In this document: positions 5,853 to 16,469 of the stretch, piece after piece
How the letters are laid out: each line of letters opens with the position of its first letter
Numbering within the stretch: position 1 is the stretch's first letter
Virus record (IMG/VR): IMGVR_UViG_3300010391_000197
Span: 1 to 32,856 of that record
From: a virus
Length of the DNA stretch: 32,856 bases
Reading direction: 5' to 3' (one strand)
The notes under the pieces: model-generated
The model's input: the letters and a program-made list of their open reading frames with translations, nothing else
The model's database searches: none
Told to the model about the DNA's origin: nothing
Made by a program: the position numbers and the translations under genes

Positions 5853-6121
5853 AGAAATACATCTACTTCGGCACGGACAAGAACGGCGCGGTGCTGGAGA
5901 TCCTGCAATGCGTCAGCGAGCTGGAGCCGACGCCAGCCGAAGTCAATCAATATTGGCACCAGGCCGTGAAGATGAAGGGACTCGGCGTGCCGCGGCCGAC
6001 GCATGTCGGCGTGATGGATCTCCAAGAGCTAGAGCAGAGCGACGAGGTGGCCGCGACGCCGATGATCGAGGCGCCGATACGGGTACAACGCAACGGCCGC
6101 AACGACGGCGTGGTGAACTGA
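5849..6121 (+). CDS. Hypothetical 90-aa protein between portal and protease
   Basis: I do not recognise it. The protein starts at GTG 5849 (GTGA overlap with the portal stop) with KKYIYFGTDKNGAVLEIL, a likely beta-hairpin, followed by a helical region and a C-terminal tail with several acidic residues. AAGGAG, the ribosome site of the protease gene, immediately follows its stop. Its position suggests a head-assembly role, but nothing in the sequence proves it. Confidence 0.7.
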   Translation: MKKYIYFGTDKNGAVLEILQCVSELEPTPAEVNQYWHQAVKMKGLGVPRPTHVGVMDLQELEQSDEVAATPMIEAPIRVQRNGRNDGVVN

Positions 6122-6132
6122 AGGAGACGACG

Positions 6133-7074
6133 ATGGACAAGCGCATTCTCAACCAGATCGCGGAGCGGCCGTGGGCGATCCTGCCTTCGGCGCTGGAATC
6201 GGCAATCGCGAACATCGAGGCCGGACTGCCGGCAGAGGCGGCGGCACGTCGTCCGCCCTCGCGCGCCGGCGCCATCGCCGTACTGCCGCTCCAGGGCGTG
6301 CTGCGCCAGAAGGGCAGCACCTTCATGGATGAGTTGTTCGGCGAAGGCGGTGGATCGACGGAACGCTTCGCGGCGAACGTGCGGCGGCTCGCGGCGGACG
6401 AATCGATCGGCACGATCGTGCTCGATGTCCACTCCCCCGGCGGGGAGGTGTTCGGCACGCAGGAAGCGGCCGATGCGGTCTGGGAGGCGCGGCAATCGAC
6501 GAAGGTGATCGCCGTGATCAACAGCCTCGGCGCCAGCGCGGCGTACTGGATCGCATCGCAGGCCAACGAACTGATCGTCTCGCCGTCGAGCCTGACGGGC
6601 TCGATCGGCGTGTTCGCTGTCCATGAGGACATCTCGCAGATGGCTGAGAACCTCGGCATCAAGATCACGCTGATCAGCGCCGGGAAGTTCAAGACGGAGG
6701 CCAATGAGTTCGAGCCGTTGACGGACGAAGCGAAGTCCGCGATCCAGGGCCAGATCGACGATTATTACAGCCAGTCCGTCGCCGCCGTCGCGCGCGGCCG
6801 GAAGGCATCGCAGGCGGCCGTGCGTGCTGGATACGGGCAGGGGCGCGTGCTGACGGCGAAGGATGCCGTAGCGGCGGGGCTGGCCGACCGCATCGGCACG
6901 CTACGTGACGTACTGGGCGCGGGCGCGGCGCCGGAAGGGATGCAGGCGTTCGTGCCGGGCTTCGACGACGACAGCAACCCCGTCGCGCCGCTGATCGTTC
7001 CCGCCGCCGAAGATCCCGCCGCACAGCACGAGATCGAGCGCGAACGCTGGGAGTATGCGCGTCTCGGCGCTTGA
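6133..7074 (+). CDS. Head maturation protease, S49 (SppA/ClpP-like) family
   Basis: This 313-aa serine protease probably processes the prohead, for example by removing the capsid delta domain or scaffold. The fold signature is clear: GTIVLDVHSPGGEVFG (oxyanion-hole region), then INSLGASAAYWIAS with the likely catalytic Ser135, then TGSIGVF, then SAGKFKTEANEFEPL with likely catalytic Lys187. This Ser/Lys dyad is that of S49 signal-peptide peptidases and lambda C-like proteases. AAGGAG lies 6-7 bases before ATG 6133. The stop codon TGA is embedded in a promoter-like TTGACA (7071-7076). Confidence 0.93.
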   Translation: MDKRILNQIAERPWAILPSALESAIANIEAGLPAEAAARRPPSRAGAIAVLPLQGVLRQKGSTFMDELFGEGGGSTERFAANVRRLAADESIGTIVLDVHSPGGEVFGTQEAADAVWEARQSTKVIAVINSLGASAAYWIASQANELIVSPSSLTGSIGVFAVHEDISQMAENLGIKITLISAGKFKTEANEFEPLTDEAKSAIQGQIDDYYSQSVAAVARGRKASQAAVRAGYGQGRVLTAKDAVAAGLADRIGTLRDVLGAGAAPEGMQAFVPGFDDDSNPVAPLIVPAAEDPAAQHEIERERWEYARLGA

Positions 7075-7100
7075 CACGAGCCCCCCACTAGATGCATACT
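7071..7100 (+). promoter_or_regulatory. Candidate sigma70-type promoter
   Basis: TTGACA (7071-7076) matches the -35 consensus fully; CATACT (7095-7100) matches the -10 at 4 of 6 positions with an 18-bp spacer. Initiation would fall near 7107, exactly where a 12-bp inverted repeat begins. The -35 overlaps the protease stop codon. It would give the next two genes, and perhaps the capsid gene, their own transcript. Confidence 0.5.
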
Positions 7101-7199
7101 CGCCTAAGTTGACGCCAGTAACCAAGAATTACTCAGGCTCTCGCTCACGTTCTGCTGCTGGCGTCAACTACCAAACGCAAGCGTGGGCGGGGGCTTTTT
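7079..7199 (+). ncRNA. Candidate structured leader RNA or small RNA
   Basis: A perfect 12-bp inverted repeat, AGTTGACGCCAG (7107-7118) and CTGGCGTCAACT (7158-7169), brackets a 39-nt loop. Outside it, AGCCCCC (7079-7085) can pair with GGGGGCT (7189-7195), which is followed directly by a T-run (7195-7199). If transcription begins near 7107 the product could be a roughly 90-nt RNA ending at the T-run, or a leader for the gene at 7226. No known RNA family is recognised, and there is no protein-like reading frame of note in this gap. Confidence 0.4.
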
Positions 7200-7201
7200 G
7201 T

Positions 7202-7217
7202 GTTCCAAGAAAGGAAC
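7202..7217 (+). promoter_or_regulatory. Hairpin overlapping the ribosome site of the 7226 gene
   Basis: GTTCC (7202-7206) pairs with GGAAC (7213-7217) around a 6-nt AAGAAA loop. The likely Shine-Dalgarno AAGGAA (7211-7216) lies partly in this loop and stem, about 9 bases before ATG 7226. It could modulate translation. Confidence 0.4.
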
Positions 7218-7225
7218 GGTTCGGC

Positions 7226-7909
7226 ATGGTCACGAAAGTAGCGGAACGAAAGAACGGGAAAGTCCCAGTGGTGGAGGAGATGGGCGGAGGCGGCGTGCTC
7301 GTCGTTGCGGCACCGAACTTCAAGACGGCAACGGCGCAGATCATCGGCACGGCGCCGCTGATGGTACATCGGTTCTCGAAGAAGGCCGAGTTGATGGCGA
7401 AGCACCAGGCTGGCAGCCGTGCGAATCGCGGCAAGACGGATAAGGCCGCGCGGGACTTCGACGCCGATTACGAGTCGGCGCGGTTCAAGGACGTGAAGGC
7501 CGGATGGGACGGCTTCAACGCATCCAGCATCCGCAACGCGATGATCTCCGCGTGCCGCACGGCGGGGATCAAGATGACGCAGATGAAGCTCGCGGCGTTC
7601 GTGGAGGCCGACGGCTTCGACGAAGATGGCACGCCGCTGATCCGCATCTACGGCGAGCCGAAAATGGACGTGCGGTATGCGCGCAATCGGACGGGCGTCG
7701 TAGATCTTCGTGCTCGCCCGCGATTCGATAAGTGGCACGCGAAGCTCCGCATCCGGTTCGACGCCGACATGATCGCGTTCCCCGATCTCGCGAACCTGCT
7801 CATGCGCGCGGGGCAACAGGTGGGCATCGGCGAGGGCCGCCCAGACAGCCCGAACTCGGCGGGTATCGGTTATGGCCTGTTCGACGTCGTTGGGGAGATC
7901 CCGCAATGA
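7226..7909 (+). CDS. Unrecognised 227-aa protein of the GGNNN-array cassette
   Basis: No named family is recognised. The protein is a soluble mix of strands and helices: a Gly-rich start (EEMGGGGVLVV), then a strand followed by IGTAPLMVHRFS near residue 40, a basic region, a helix with RNAMISACRTAGIKMTQMK, and a C-terminal half with LIRIYGEP, DLRARPRFDKWHAKLRIRFD and finally GIGEGRPDSP with a closing GYGLFDVV strand. The GIG-x-x-RP motif plus final strand feels like a recurring phage family, but I cannot name it. It sits in an atypical place, between head protease and capsid gene, behind its own promoter, and overlaps the next gene as ATGA. The start is ATG 7226 because the leader structures end just before it. 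Confidence 0.8.
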   Translation: MVTKVAERKNGKVPVVEEMGGGGVLVVAAPNFKTATAQIIGTAPLMVHRFSKKAELMAKHQAGSRANRGKTDKAARDFDADYESARFKDVKAGWDGFNASSIRNAMISACRTAGIKMTQMKLAAFVEADGFDEDGTPLIRIYGEPKMDVRYARNRTGVVDLRARPRFDKWHAKLRIRFDADMIAFPDLANLLMRAGQQVGIGEGRPDSPNSAGIGYGLFDVVGEIPQ

Positions 7910-8349
7910 AGAAGCGCGCGCTCATCCTCGCCGAACTACGGAAGATCGCCAAGAAGCATGGTGGCCTCGTGCGACCGGCGCATGTGATAGAGGCGGCGCA
8001 AGATGCCGCCTCACCGCTACACGGTGAGTTCGTCTGGAACAACAAGAAGGCCGCCGACGAGTACCGGCTCTGGCAGGCGCGCAAACTACTCGCCCAATAC
8101 TGGATCGTCGAACCGATGAGCGGCGAACCGATCCGACTGATGCTCTCACTGAACAGCGACCGGCCAGCAAAGGCGGGGTATCGGTTCAGTGAGAAGGTTC
8201 TCGCTGACCCCGATCAGCGCGCCGAATGGTTACAGATGGCGCTCGACGATCTCAGCGCGTGGCAGCGTCAGTACGGCGCGTTGAAGGAACTCGCGGTTGT
8301 GTTCAATGCGATCGCGCGCGTCGTGCCAAAGCACGCGAAGGCGGCCTAG
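7906..8349 (+). CDS. Unrecognised 147-aa partner protein of the GGNNN-array cassette
   Basis: No function is assigned. The N-terminus (residues 3-28) is basic and helical and could form a small helix-turn-helix, followed by VIEAAQDAASPLHGEFVWNN (about 27-46) and YRLWQARKLL; the pattern of SPLH, then F-x-W, then YR--QAR looks conserved in form. The C-terminal part is helical (WLQMALDDLSAWQRQYG). The ATG overlaps the previous stop as ATGA, so the two proteins are probably co-translated and work together. The gene ends 1 bp before the GGNNN array starts. Confidence 0.78.
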   Translation: MKKRALILAELRKIAKKHGGLVRPAHVIEAAQDAASPLHGEFVWNNKKAADEYRLWQARKLLAQYWIVEPMSGEPIRLMLSLNSDRPAKAGYRFSEKVLADPDQRAEWLQMALDDLSAWQRQYGALKELAVVFNAIARVVPKHAKAA

Positions 8350-8563
8350 GCGTGGATGGCGTGTCCCGGCTGGGTGCGGCAGGGCAGGCACCGTGGGGTT
8401 GAGACTGGCGCGGACAGGAACGGCTAGGCCGGGACGGGTATGGTTTGGATTGGCGGGGCAGGGCCCTGCCCGGTTCGGACCGGCTGGGTGCAGGCGAGGT
8501 GCGGCAGGCAAGGCACGGCGAGGTGGGGCAAGGCCGGGCGCGGCGCGGCATGGCAACGCTGGG
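8349..8563 (+). repeat. Degenerate GGNNN pentanucleotide array
   Basis: Over 8407-8563, GG occurs in a strict 5-base register: 27 of 32 slots at 8407+5k read GG, and three of the five misses (8492, 8497, 8502) have GG shifted by one base. The other three bases of each unit vary freely (GGCGC, GGACA, GGAAC, GGCTA, GGTAT, GGTTT, GGATT and so on). A looser version extends back to 8349. This is not simple-sequence slippage, since units differ while GG spacing is kept. The + strand or its RNA would offer about 30 G-pairs, compatible with two-tetrad G-quadruplexes. No supported protein is encoded on either strand. Confidence 0.85.
8456..8471. repeat. Perfect 16-bp palindrome inside the GGNNN array
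   Basis: GGGCAGGGCCCTGCCC reads the same on both strands. It lies near the middle of the array and coincides with the first register break (slot 8467). It could be a dimeric-protein site or a cruciform/hairpin centre, or chance in G-rich DNA. Confidence 0.7.
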
Positions 8564-8581
8564 TGGAAATGAGGATGAGAT

Positions 8582-8611
8582 TTGACAAGCGTGAGGCCGA
8601 CAACTTAGAGT
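8582..8611 (+). promoter_or_regulatory. Candidate sigma70-type promoter for the capsid gene
   Basis: TTGACA (8582-8587) is a perfect -35; TAGAGT (8606-8611) is a 4-of-6 -10 at 18-bp spacing. This is the same geometry as the candidate at 7071. It lies directly after the GGNNN array and about 180 bp before the capsid start, giving a long structured 5' leader. Confidence 0.5.
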
Positions 8612-8629
8612 AGTCAACGACACATGGGT

Positions 8630-8756
8630 TGATGCGCGGAGGTCACGAGATGACCCGAGTGCATCAGCGAACGATCTGCGAAGCGTTCACGAGATGAGCG
8701 CGTTCCAGTTCAGCCGCAAACGAATGCGGTTGCGCTGGGCGCGCTCTTTCGTTTGC
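8630..8756 (+). promoter_or_regulatory. Structured capsid leader with competing hairpins
   Basis: Several perfect inverted repeats sit in tandem: TGATGC (8630-8635) with GCATCA (8661-8666), enclosing GGTCA/TGACC (8641-8645/8651-8655); GAACG (8669-8673) with CGTTC (8684-8688); GAGCGCG (8696-8702) with CGCGCTC (8740-8746), followed by TTTCGTTT; and inside it CCGCA/TGCGG (8714-8718/8725-8729). GCAAACGAA (8716-8724) can instead pair with TTCGTTTGC (8748-8756), excluding the CCGCA hairpin. An 11-bp direct repeat TCACGAGATGA occurs at 8643 and 8687. The layout resembles a terminator/antiterminator leader, but no ligand class is recognised. Confidence 0.5.
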
Positions 8757-8782
8757 CTCCGGCGCCACCGGCGCACAGGAGG
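8756..8782 (+). promoter_or_regulatory. Hairpin that sequesters the capsid Shine-Dalgarno site
   Basis: CCTCC (8756-8760) is an exact complement of the ribosome site GGAGG (8778-8782), and between them GCGCC (8762-8766) pairs with GGCGC (8770-8774) around a 3-nt loop. The start ATG is at 8791. When folded, this stem would hide the ribosome site of the most highly expressed virion protein. C8756 is also the last base of the alternative TTCGTTTGC pairing. Confidence 0.6.
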
Positions 8783-8790
8783 AGACGAAC

Positions 8791-10125
8791 ATGGATCGAG
8801 TCACTGCGCTCAAGCAAGAACGCGCAGAGATCGTCACGAAGGGCCTCGCCCTCGTTGACAAGGCGGCGACCGAGAACCGGCGCATGACCGAAGAGGAGCT
8901 GGCCGAGAGCGCCACGCTCCGCACCTCGGTCGAGAACATCGACAAGGAGATCAGCGCCGCCAGCTTCATGCAGGGCGAGCGCGAGAAGGCGGAGCAGGCC
9001 AGCGCAGAGGCGACGCGCAGGGCCGTCGAAGCCACGACGCCGCTCGAAGACGACAAGAAGAAGTCCGCCGCGCCGACACCGTTCAAGAGCCTCGGTGACC
9101 AGCTCGCGGCCGTCGCGACCGCCGGCCAGAACCCGCATCGGATTCATCAGGGACTACTCGACATTCAGGCCGTCGCGCTCGGCTCCAGCGAAGGCGTCGA
9201 GTCGGACGGCGGATTCTTGGTGCAGACCGACTACACGAACGCGCTGCTCGAAGAGGCGCACGAGACCGGTGTGCTACTCGGGCTGACGGATCAGCGGCCG
9301 ATCAGTGCCAACGCCAACGGCATGAAGCAGAACGCCGTCGATGAGACGAGCCGTGTGGACGGCTCTCGCATGGGCGGCATCCGGGCGTTCTGGACGGCTG
9401 AGGCGGCCGCGCTGACCTCGGCGAAGCCGAAGTTCCGGCAGCTTGAATTGAATCTCCAGAAGCTGACCGGGCTGTACTACGCCACCGACGAGGAACTGAA
9501 GGACGTGACGGCCCTCGCGGGGAACGTGACGCGCTGGTTCGGTGACGAGTTCGGTTTCAAGATCGATGACGCCTTGATCCGGGGCGTCGGCGCCGGCATG
9601 CCGCTGGGCATCCTCGGTCACGCGGGCACAATCTCGATCGCGAAGGAAGCGGGACAGGCCGCGGCGACAGTGATCAAGGCGAACATCGAGGGCATGTATG
9701 CCCGGATGTTCGCGCGCTCCGTGCCGCGCGCGACGTGGTTCATCAATCAGGACGTGTGGCCGCAGCTCTTCGAGCTGTCGGTCGCGGTGGGCGTCGGCGG
9801 AGTGCCGCTGTTCATTCCGTCGAACTCGATGGCAAACGCGCCCTTCGGCACGCTGCTCGGCCGTCCGATCCGCCCGATCGAGCACTGCGAGACGCTCGGG
9901 ACGGTCGGCGACATCATCCTGGCCGACTGGAACGAGTACATTACGATCGCGAAGGGCGGGATTGAAGCCGCGTCTTCGATTCATGTGCAGTTCCTGACCT
10001 ATGAGACGGCCTTCCGCTTCATCCTCCGGATGGACGGACAGCCGAAGCGCAATGCTCCGATCACGCCGTTCAAGGGCACGAAGACCCAGGCACCATTCCT
10101 CACGCTGGCCACAAGGGGGCCGTAG
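8791..10125 (+). CDS. Major capsid protein, HK97 fold
   Basis: This 444-aa protein builds the icosahedral shell. Residues 1-100 are charged and helical (coiled-coil delta/scaffolding domain, rich in E/K/A), probably removed by the S49 protease. After about 110 the HK97 core follows: ALGSSEGVESDGGFLVQTDY, the E-loop and P-domain entry IRAFWTAEAAALTSAKPKF (197-215), FRQLELNLQKLTGLYYATDE (215-234), LGILGHAGT, and a C-terminal core ending with FLTYETAFRFILRMDGQP. ATG 8791 has GGAGG 8 bases upstream. The region FRQLELNLQKLTGLYY recurs in a small gene at 13351. Confidence 0.95.
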   Translation: MDRVTALKQERAEIVTKGLALVDKAATENRRMTEEELAESATLRTSVENIDKEISAASFMQGEREKAEQASAEATRRAVEATTPLEDDKKKSAAPTPFKSLGDQLAAVATAGQNPHRIHQGLLDIQAVALGSSEGVESDGGFLVQTDYTNALLEEAHETGVLLGLTDQRPISANANGMKQNAVDETSRVDGSRMGGIRAFWTAEAAALTSAKPKFRQLELNLQKLTGLYYATDEELKDVTALAGNVTRWFGDEFGFKIDDALIRGVGAGMPLGILGHAGTISIAKEAGQAAATVIKANIEGMYARMFARSVPRATWFINQDVWPQLFELSVAVGVGGVPLFIPSNSMANAPFGTLLGRPIRPIEHCETLGTVGDIILADWNEYITIAKGGIEAASSIHVQFLTYETAFRFILRMDGQPKRNAPITPFKGTKTQAPFLTLATRGP

Positions 10126-13354: not shown

Positions 13355-13527
13355 ACATGCTCCGACGAATCTGGCGTCAGCTAACCGGGCATTCTGATCG
13401 CCGGGATGAAGTCAATGCCTACTGGACGGTTGAGGGAAACCTTGAGGGAAACCTTGAGTTTCGCCAGATGGAATTGAACCTCCAGAAGCTGAAAGATCTC
13501 TACTACGTCAGAGATAAGGAGTCATAG
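13351..13527 (+). CDS. 58-aa protein carrying a copy of a capsid-protein segment
   Basis: The frame starts ATGA over the connector stop and is followed immediately by the next GTG. Residues 37-52 (FRQMELNLQKLKDLYY) match capsid residues 215-230 (FRQLELNLQKLTGLYY) at 13 of 16 positions, and AYWTVEG at 23-29 aligns with AFWTAEA. The N-terminal 22 residues are basic and unrelated. A 12-bp tandem duplication (13430-13453) adds a GNLEGNLE repeat. This is a fragment of an HK97-type capsid gene fused to a new start, either a remnant or a selected mimic. Shine-Dalgarno before the next gene lies inside its end. Confidence 0.7.
   Translation: MNMLRRIWRQLTGHSDRRDEVNAYWTVEGNLEGNLEFRQMELNLQKLKDLYYVRDKES
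13430..13453 (+). repeat. 12-bp tandem duplication
   Basis: TTGAGGGAAACC occurs twice back to back (13430-13441, 13442-13453), followed by a partial third copy TTGAG. It lies inside the capsid-like small gene and keeps frame, adding four residues per unit. Confidence 0.9.
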
Positions 13528-15833: not shown

Positions 15834-16469
15834 GTGGTTACGGCGCGACGACGGAAGTGCCGGGCATGTACGCACAACCTCATCGGCATGTGCCCGCACT
15901 GGAGTAAGAAGGGGACTCGCGTGAACGGCAAACGGAACGGGCTGGTGGTCATCGAACGAAACGATGACGAATCCAAGGTCAAGATTGACATCGGCGCCGG
16001 CGCGCGGACGAATGAGGGTTACATCCGCCTCGATGTGGTGCCGTATTTTCGGCCGGAGTTGATGGCGGCGTTGACGACGCTGCCCTTCGCCCGCGATTCC
16101 GTCGATCAGATCATCTGCCATCACGTGCTGGAGCACCTCGAACGAAAAGACCTGATCCCGGCAATGAACGAGATGCACCGCGTGCTGAAGCCGGGCGGTA
16201 TTGCCGAGATCGAAGTGCCGTTGTTCCCGTTCTGGCAGGCGATCGCCGACCCGACGCACGTCAGCTTCTTCGTGTCGCAGACGTTCGACTACTTCTGCAC
16301 GAATCCCGACCTGGAGTACAAGCGCGACCAGAAGAACTACGACTTCATCGTCAAGGAACGCCGAGAGCACATGATGCTCTACGGCATCCGGCCGTGGGAG
16401 CTGGTGCGGCGGATGCGCTTCGGGACGGGCGAGATCGAACGCATCGAGATGGAGAAGGTGGACGCGTGA
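15834..16469 (+). CDS. SAM-dependent methyltransferase with N-terminal Cys motif
   Basis: A 211-aa protein. Residues 9-22 hold CRACTHNLIGMCPH, a possible zinc knuckle. The methyltransferase core follows: KIDIGAGARTNEGYIRLD (about 49-66), LPFARDSVDQIICHHVLEHL (about 83-102) and HRVLKPGGIAEIEVP. GTG 15834 directly follows the previous stop; a second GTG at 15921 with a GGGG-rich upstream region would drop the Cys motif. I prefer the longer form because the cysteines look selected. Substrate unknown. Confidence 0.83.
   Translation: MVTARRRKCRACTHNLIGMCPHWSKKGTRVNGKRNGLVVIERNDDESKVKIDIGAGARTNEGYIRLDVVPYFRPELMAALTTLPFARDSVDQIICHHVLEHLERKDLIPAMNEMHRVLKPGGIAEIEVPLFPFWQAIADPTHVSFFVSQTFDYFCTNPDLEYKRDQKNYDFIVKERREHMMLYGIRPWELVRRMRFGTGEIERIEMEKVDA

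Follow-up and report, generated by a model that had tools for sequence, protein, structure and literature searches.

A stretch of viral DNA of 32,856 nucleotides (nt) (IMG/VR record IMGVR_UViG_3300010391_000197, positions 1 to 32,856; hereafter, the window) carries two overlapping genes followed by an array of GG-containing 5-nt units. We conclude with high confidence that this cassette (7226-8564) is a VIPR system, an accessory insert in the head module of a tailed phage, whose array specifies guide RNAs. The identification follows from the homology of both genes, the structure of the array, the co-occurrence of array and genes in related loci and, in those relatives, a code that leads to integrase targets. 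A recent preprint (PMC13142463, April/June 2026) describes VIPR, a viral relative of CRISPR, as a RAMP-like protein (Vipr) with an accessory gene (vap) and RNAs built of GGY/NN repeats, the NN pairs of which read DNA while skipping one base per unit, and it distinguishes seven types, with accessory genes vap1-6. For the system of Escherichia phage SUSP1, the same text reports that Vipr binds RNA and that the complex silences matched DNA (PMC13142463). VIPR is already published, and the window holds a further member; a first-pass annotation of this DNA, which knew of no named element like the array, has been overtaken on that point, as the preprint supplies a name for it, the VIPR vrRNA array (PMC13142463).

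Structure of the array

The array lies on the plus strand at 8358-8564 and starts 9 nt past the stop codon of the second gene. GG opens 27 of the 32 slots of a single 5-nt register between 8407 and 8563 on this strand, exactly as the first-pass annotation had counted. Over 8349-8563, 31 GG dinucleotides share one phase, while 5000 dinucleotide-preserving shuffles, a control that had been proposed along with that count, reach 20 at most. The local chain score was 37.8 for the array and no higher than 14.9 for shuffles, and a scan of the whole window on both strands at periods of 3 to 12 found no second comparable run (81 bits for the array, at most 18.9 for the others), the period-10 signal in the window being the GG array itself. 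Parsed with a hidden Markov model (HMM) of the unit, GGYNN with hypervariable NN, the array comprises 42 units, 37 of which have GG. The third base of these 37 units is C in 23, T in 9, A in 5 and G in none. Since it is a pyrimidine in 32 of 37 cases and never G, in a stretch whose G content is 50%, the conserved unit is GGY and not GG alone. Spacing and GG are indeed kept under selection, as had been proposed, with a constraint on the third base besides.

The register breaks at 8387 and at 8507, each time directly after a 4-nt unit, GGCA, and these breaks are punctuation of the kind seen in relatives rather than noise. The HMM parse accordingly yields guide 1 (8358-8386), a remnant or short guide of 5 units with its GGCA terminator at 8383-8386; guide 2 (8387-8506), of about 21 units with its terminator at 8503-8506; and guide 3 (8507-8564), of 11 units and lacking a terminal GCAGG, all on the plus strand. 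Guide 2 contains one additional base, at 8492, and is possibly two fused guides; in the closest relative, locus L001, guides of 15-20 units occur too, in addition to a long array. A perfect 16-nt palindrome, GGGCAGGGCCCTGCCC, lies within guide 2 at 8457-8472, at a break in the GG register, and a long hairpin is predicted around it at about 8442-8479; the palindrome may mark the junction of two guides. An Rfam scan of the window gave no match.

Co-occurrence and architecture in relatives

We gathered relatives through the first gene (vipr) alone, which gave 103 loci (80 viral, 7 regions of named phages and 16 in cellular genomes). Their sources are phages of freshwater, of Mycobacterium and of Gordonia, a cyanophage, and contigs from several bacterial phyla. 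Of the 103, 100 have a GGYNN array no shorter than 60 nt, and an open reading frame (ORF) of the second gene's family (vap-like, phrog_15946) occurs in 101, against a background of one weak array run in 2,476 kb of viral and genomic DNA that had been fetched for other purposes and was scanned on both strands. Such co-occurrence had been suggested earlier as a check on whether the adjacent proteins use the array; the association stands, and what falls is the role then offered, that of a packaging or recombination site. The array follows the gene pair in the window and in L001, lies between the two genes in freshwater and Gordonia phages, and precedes the pair in Mycobacterium phages; its association with the gene pair is kept, and its position is not. 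Two arrays flank a gene in L085 (3611-3793 and 4391-4551), and likewise in L092, L099 and L104. In cultured Mycobacterium phages, hypothetical proteins are annotated across the arrays (2447-2833 in L082, 2600-2758 in L086), which suggests that some database "proteins" are misread guide arrays.

The arrays of relatives are chains of guides, mostly of 7-12 units each, that end in the 4-base unit GGCA and thereby slip the register by one base. Such one-base slips account for 831 of 873 register slips, with exactly GGCA ahead in 744, and adjacent guides abut without a tail in the window and relatives alike. Across 508 guides of relatives, the entropy was near its maximum at positions 4 and 5 (1.94 and 1.99 bits), compared with about 0.9 bit at positions 1-2. 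The earlier contention that whole units are not copied, and that simple slippage did not produce the array, is upheld. Shared guides were collinear in 53 of 55 pairs of related phages, the other guides differing, and guide turnover showed no strong 3' bias of a CRISPR-like polarity (mean position, 0.56 versus 0.48). GG periodicity by itself is enough to detect VIPR loci, and GGYNN blocks that close with GGCA form a signature for locating them when protein homology is not used. The presence of the same gene pair and array in cultured Mycobacterium and Gordonia phages makes the system testable in the laboratory.

The two cassette genes

The vipr gene (7226-7909, plus strand, 227 amino acids) encodes a predicted RAMP/Cas7-like RNA-binding protein. 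The stop and start codons of vipr and the vap-type accessory gene (7906-8349, plus strand, 147 amino acids) overlap at 7906-7909 (ATGA), in keeping with the first-pass description of an array directly past two co-translated genes. Neither product matched Pfam. The vipr product belongs to phrog_4652 (E = 1.6e-19), which is annotated as of unknown function, and so does SUSP1 gp039 (E = 1.4e-96), which we assigned as the Vipr gene by its size and its location between the GGYNN arrays of SUSP1. When the window protein and its relatives were combined in a profile, the search retrieved the "SUSP1 Vipr protein" of PDB chain 36pp (E = 2.4e-8; runner-up, 0.4), and an hhalign comparison gave 97.2%. The 36pp entry is a solved structure under that title in the 2026 PDB copy; we found no paper describing it beyond the preprint PMC13142463.

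We compared an AlphaFold2 (AF2) model of the vipr product (predicted local distance difference test score [pLDDT], 77) with known structures. RAMP chains of type III and type VII CRISPR systems (Csm3/Cas7) ran through the first 50 matches in the PDB, the best of them at E = 3.2e-5, and a viral library returned a protein already named "Cas system-associated RAMP superfamily protein" (E = 2.4e-7). TM-scores to CRISPR RAMPs, about 0.4, were modest, in line with a distant relationship. The protein has a conserved G-loop, G196-x-x-V-G-I-G-E-G-R-P, and the model is consistent with a RAMP fold of RRM core plus G-loop; the region of the thumb domain, residues about 51-75, was modelled at low confidence. 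The accessory product belongs to phrog_15946 (E = 1.1e-20), likewise annotated as of unknown function, and its AF2 model (pLDDT, 88) gave weak MarR/winged-helix matches (E of at least 0.3), so that it may bind DNA as a winged-helix protein. Each of the two ORFs is intact and aligns with its family from end to end, and the Vipr of L001 is 81% identical to that of the window.

Guide code and integrase targets

We decoded guides by the published rule, in which NN supplies codon positions 1-2 and one base is skipped per unit. One widely shared guide decodes, antisense, to V[KN]T[FL][KN][DE][CW]A[DE]AY[IM], and its eight core units led to an IMG/VR gene with TFKECAEAYI, the product of which is a P4-type tyrosine integrase according to Pfam. 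Because this first integrase gene had been located through a guide, we then tested all guides together. Against four such integrases, 17 decoded guides matched at least 8 residues, compared with 0, 1, 0 and 0 when the order of units was reversed or shuffled.

At the DNA level, we compared 372 guides with 80 integrase genes at skips of 0-3 on both strands. Only a skip of one base in the antisense orientation stood apart from shuffled guides: 38 of the 372 matched at three or fewer mismatches (shuffled guides, 1-5) and 18 at two or fewer (shuffled guides, 0), and the best match was perfect, at 22/22. The sense strand at the same skip gave 2 guides at three or fewer mismatches and 0 at two or fewer, while skips of 0, 2 and 3 gave 2-5 guides and none, respectively, at these thresholds; a whole-locus run with skips of 0-4 agreed. 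All 38 integrase matches fell in codon register, which places the skipped base at the wobble position. The matches covered about ten distinct integrase motifs, HxxR and tyrosine boxes included, among them VHGFRSTFRDW, MKAGKEHKVPL, FKECAEAY, NKVEAAYR and ENTLATYASP, and integrase-matching guides, one or more per locus, occur in 50 of the 80 viral relatives; guides are related across loci, and the match counts are not all independent events. In the relatives' own neighbourhoods, the guides of the 80 had no matches above shuffles at any skip, as expected if a phage's own kin are not targeted. A guide from a Bradyrhizobium prophage gave 3 matches in 243 congeneric genomes, which is chance level (backward control, 2), and no P4-type integrase was present in the window or in the fetched VIPR loci, of which about 8 kb per relative was seen.

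In a clade distinct from the characterized one, these results confirm the one-base-skip code with nothing but natural sequences. That the guides of many phages converge on conserved and catalytic tyrosine-integrase motifs, nearly all in one orientation and always wobble-aligned, suggests the purpose of this branch. We propose that the array would be transcribed with or after both genes into guide RNA, along which Vipr subunits, as RAMPs of the Cas7 kind, would line up one per GGY and splay the NN pairs. The guide would then pair with its target through these dinucleotides and pass over one target base in each unit. The guides of relatives match the tyrosine-integrase genes of other mobile elements in antisense, with the skipped base at the codon wobble position, and the likely effect would be the silencing of competing integrative elements, prophages, satellites or islands. 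For the window itself, we infer transcription of the array, processing at GGCA, formation of a ribonucleoprotein, silencing and targets of its own guides.

A variant of this mechanism, rather than an alternative to it, is that the guides of this clade act on mRNA and not on double-stranded DNA (dsDNA), which we think fairly unlikely. The integrase matches are antisense by 38 to 2 at three or fewer mismatches and by 18 to 0 at two or fewer, and the nearest folds to the modelled protein are Csm3 and type VII Cas7, which belong to RNA-targeting complexes. However, the identical bias would arise if guides paired with the non-template strand of DNA, and SUSP1 VIPR is described in the preprint as binding dsDNA and silencing from either strand (PMC13142463); the one-sided orientation fits mRNA pairing or coding-strand DNA pairing alike. 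The convergence on integrases and its orientation together allow a sharp test of DNA versus RNA targeting. We also suggest, tentatively and at well below even likelihood, that the clade is a mechanistically distinct VIPR branch, with tail-less guides, cut at GGCA commas out of a single long array, that read integrase transcripts or the coding strand at catalytic codons. If this is true, synonymous changes would offer no escape, and the phages would carry a silencer of rival elements' integration.

Comparison with known systems

With VIPR type II of SUSP1, the system shares the Vipr family (phrog_4652), a phage-borne locus of two genes with same-strand GGY/NN arrays, and a wobble-aligned 1-nt skip code, and the SUSP1 (NC_028808) arrays parse with the same unit HMM. 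The accessory families differ (phrog_5926 in SUSP1, phrog_15946 here) and have no profile similarity. Each SUSP1 guide bears a conserved tail, whereas guides here abut via the 4-nt GGCA, and, unlike SUSP1, the relatives here aim at integrase genes in one orientation. Judged by tail and accessory gene, the window system does not belong to VIPR type II (SUSP1, P. fulva). The "staggered arrays with overlapping vrRNAs" of the preprint (PMC13142463 fig. S18) may share the tail-less continuous architecture; GGCA punctuation, integrase targeting and strand bias are absent from the preprint's main text.

Like Class 1 CRISPR-Cas effectors (type III Csm3, type VII Cas7), Vipr is predicted to have a RAMP/RRM fold with a glycine-rich loop, and, as in those systems, the guide array adjoins the effector gene and guides are exchanged modularly between related phages. 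Unlike Class 1 CRISPR-Cas, the system is without palindromic repeats and without a multi-subunit cas operon, and its pairing code is non-contiguous. A scan of the window found no CRISPR repeats, and the neighbours of the cassette are phage head genes, not a cas operon.

Competing explanations

The array could instead be a structural or protein-binding element of DNA or RNA (a G-quadruplex, packaging or recombination site) that lies only incidentally near the genes, given that G2N3 spacing permits a two-quartet G-quadruplex and that the array sits in the head module beside packaging genes. We give this very little credence, and for the VIPR-array family it is already refuted by the integrase code and the GGCA parse: arrays accompany vipr at unrelated genomic positions, and the variable bases of the relatives encode integrase motifs. 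In the window, the predominance of a pyrimidine after GG and the absence of G there argue against it as well, as does the fold of the array RNA, which is no more stable than that of shuffles (z = -0.69). Nothing points to the G-quadruplex role suggested in the first pass either: the data do not require it, and it would leave the pyrimidine third base, the 4-nt comma and the target information in the variable bases unexplained. Least credible of all is a microsatellite, a GGCNN-like repeat that grew by replication slippage and later mutated. The tandem 5-nt period and the partial local repeats at 8490-8555 within the array would suit such an origin, but whole units are not copied and register slips are nearly all of one type. 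Neutral decay would, moreover, strike GG and NN alike, in contrast to the entropies measured across the relatives' guides.

The evidence that weighs against the VIPR identification comes from the window's own copy. Its array is short, guide 2 is overlong and breaks the register, and guide 1 looks truncated, so this copy may be in decay; the characterized VIPR type has a 3' tail that is lacking here; and exact IMG/VR scans with 8-11 units of the window's guides gave 0, 13, 4 and 12 matches, none convincingly extending. These features would be at home in a decayed or inactive VIPR locus, with gene and array remnants and no functional guides, as would a total of three guides at most, the extra base in guide 2, the lack of the terminal GCAGG and the absence of targets among our searches. 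We nevertheless consider decay unlikely, since both ORFs are intact with full-length family alignments, GG is kept in 37 of 42 units, and long guides in an extended array are likewise present in L001, whose Vipr is 81% identical. Window guides 2 and 3 had no match in the collected loci, integrase panel included, and a tblastn search with the 22 residues that guide 2 decodes to gave none either. Four IMG/VR loci agree with the 3' half of that guide (AHGDGGLPK) at 19/20 bases; these were rejected as a target because their frames resemble spurious antisense ORFs and the number of near misses is at chance. The right target collection for the window phage may lie outside those searched; most relatives are metagenomic phages.

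Genomic surroundings

The cassette stands between a head maturation protease gene upstream (5908-7074; Peptidase_S49/phrog_53) and the major capsid gene downstream (8791-10125; Phage_capsid), the location given in the first-pass annotation and upheld by Pfam and PHROG. Ahead of vipr on the plus strand, RNA folding predicts a long nested hairpin at 7077-7203, with an inner stem of about 14 pairs and a GC-rich outer stem followed by T5; the fold of 7075-7205 reaches -48.5 kcal/mol (z = -3.5), and 0 of 200 shuffles were equally stable. A promoter-like TTGACA-18-CATACT overlaps the start of this hairpin, between the protease stop and vipr. The hairpin is likely a terminator or boundary of the inserted cassette, and, together with the promoter-like site past the array, it would fit a self-contained accessory unit ("moron") inserted into the head operon. 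Past the array and ahead of the capsid gene, a candidate sigma70-like promoter, TTGACA-18-TAGAGT, lies at 8582-8611 on the plus strand (a consensus match only), and the RNA of 8560-8790, from array to capsid gene, is unusually structured (z = -4.1), with several hairpins.

Elsewhere in the window, the gene at 224-1429, upstream of the terminase, encodes a DNA methyltransferase whose N-terminal half is ParB-like (phrog_498, phrog_8071), and a second methyltransferase-like gene lies at 15834-16469. A perfect 12-nt tandem repeat, TTGAGGGAAACC, present in 2.4 copies, occupies 13430-13458.
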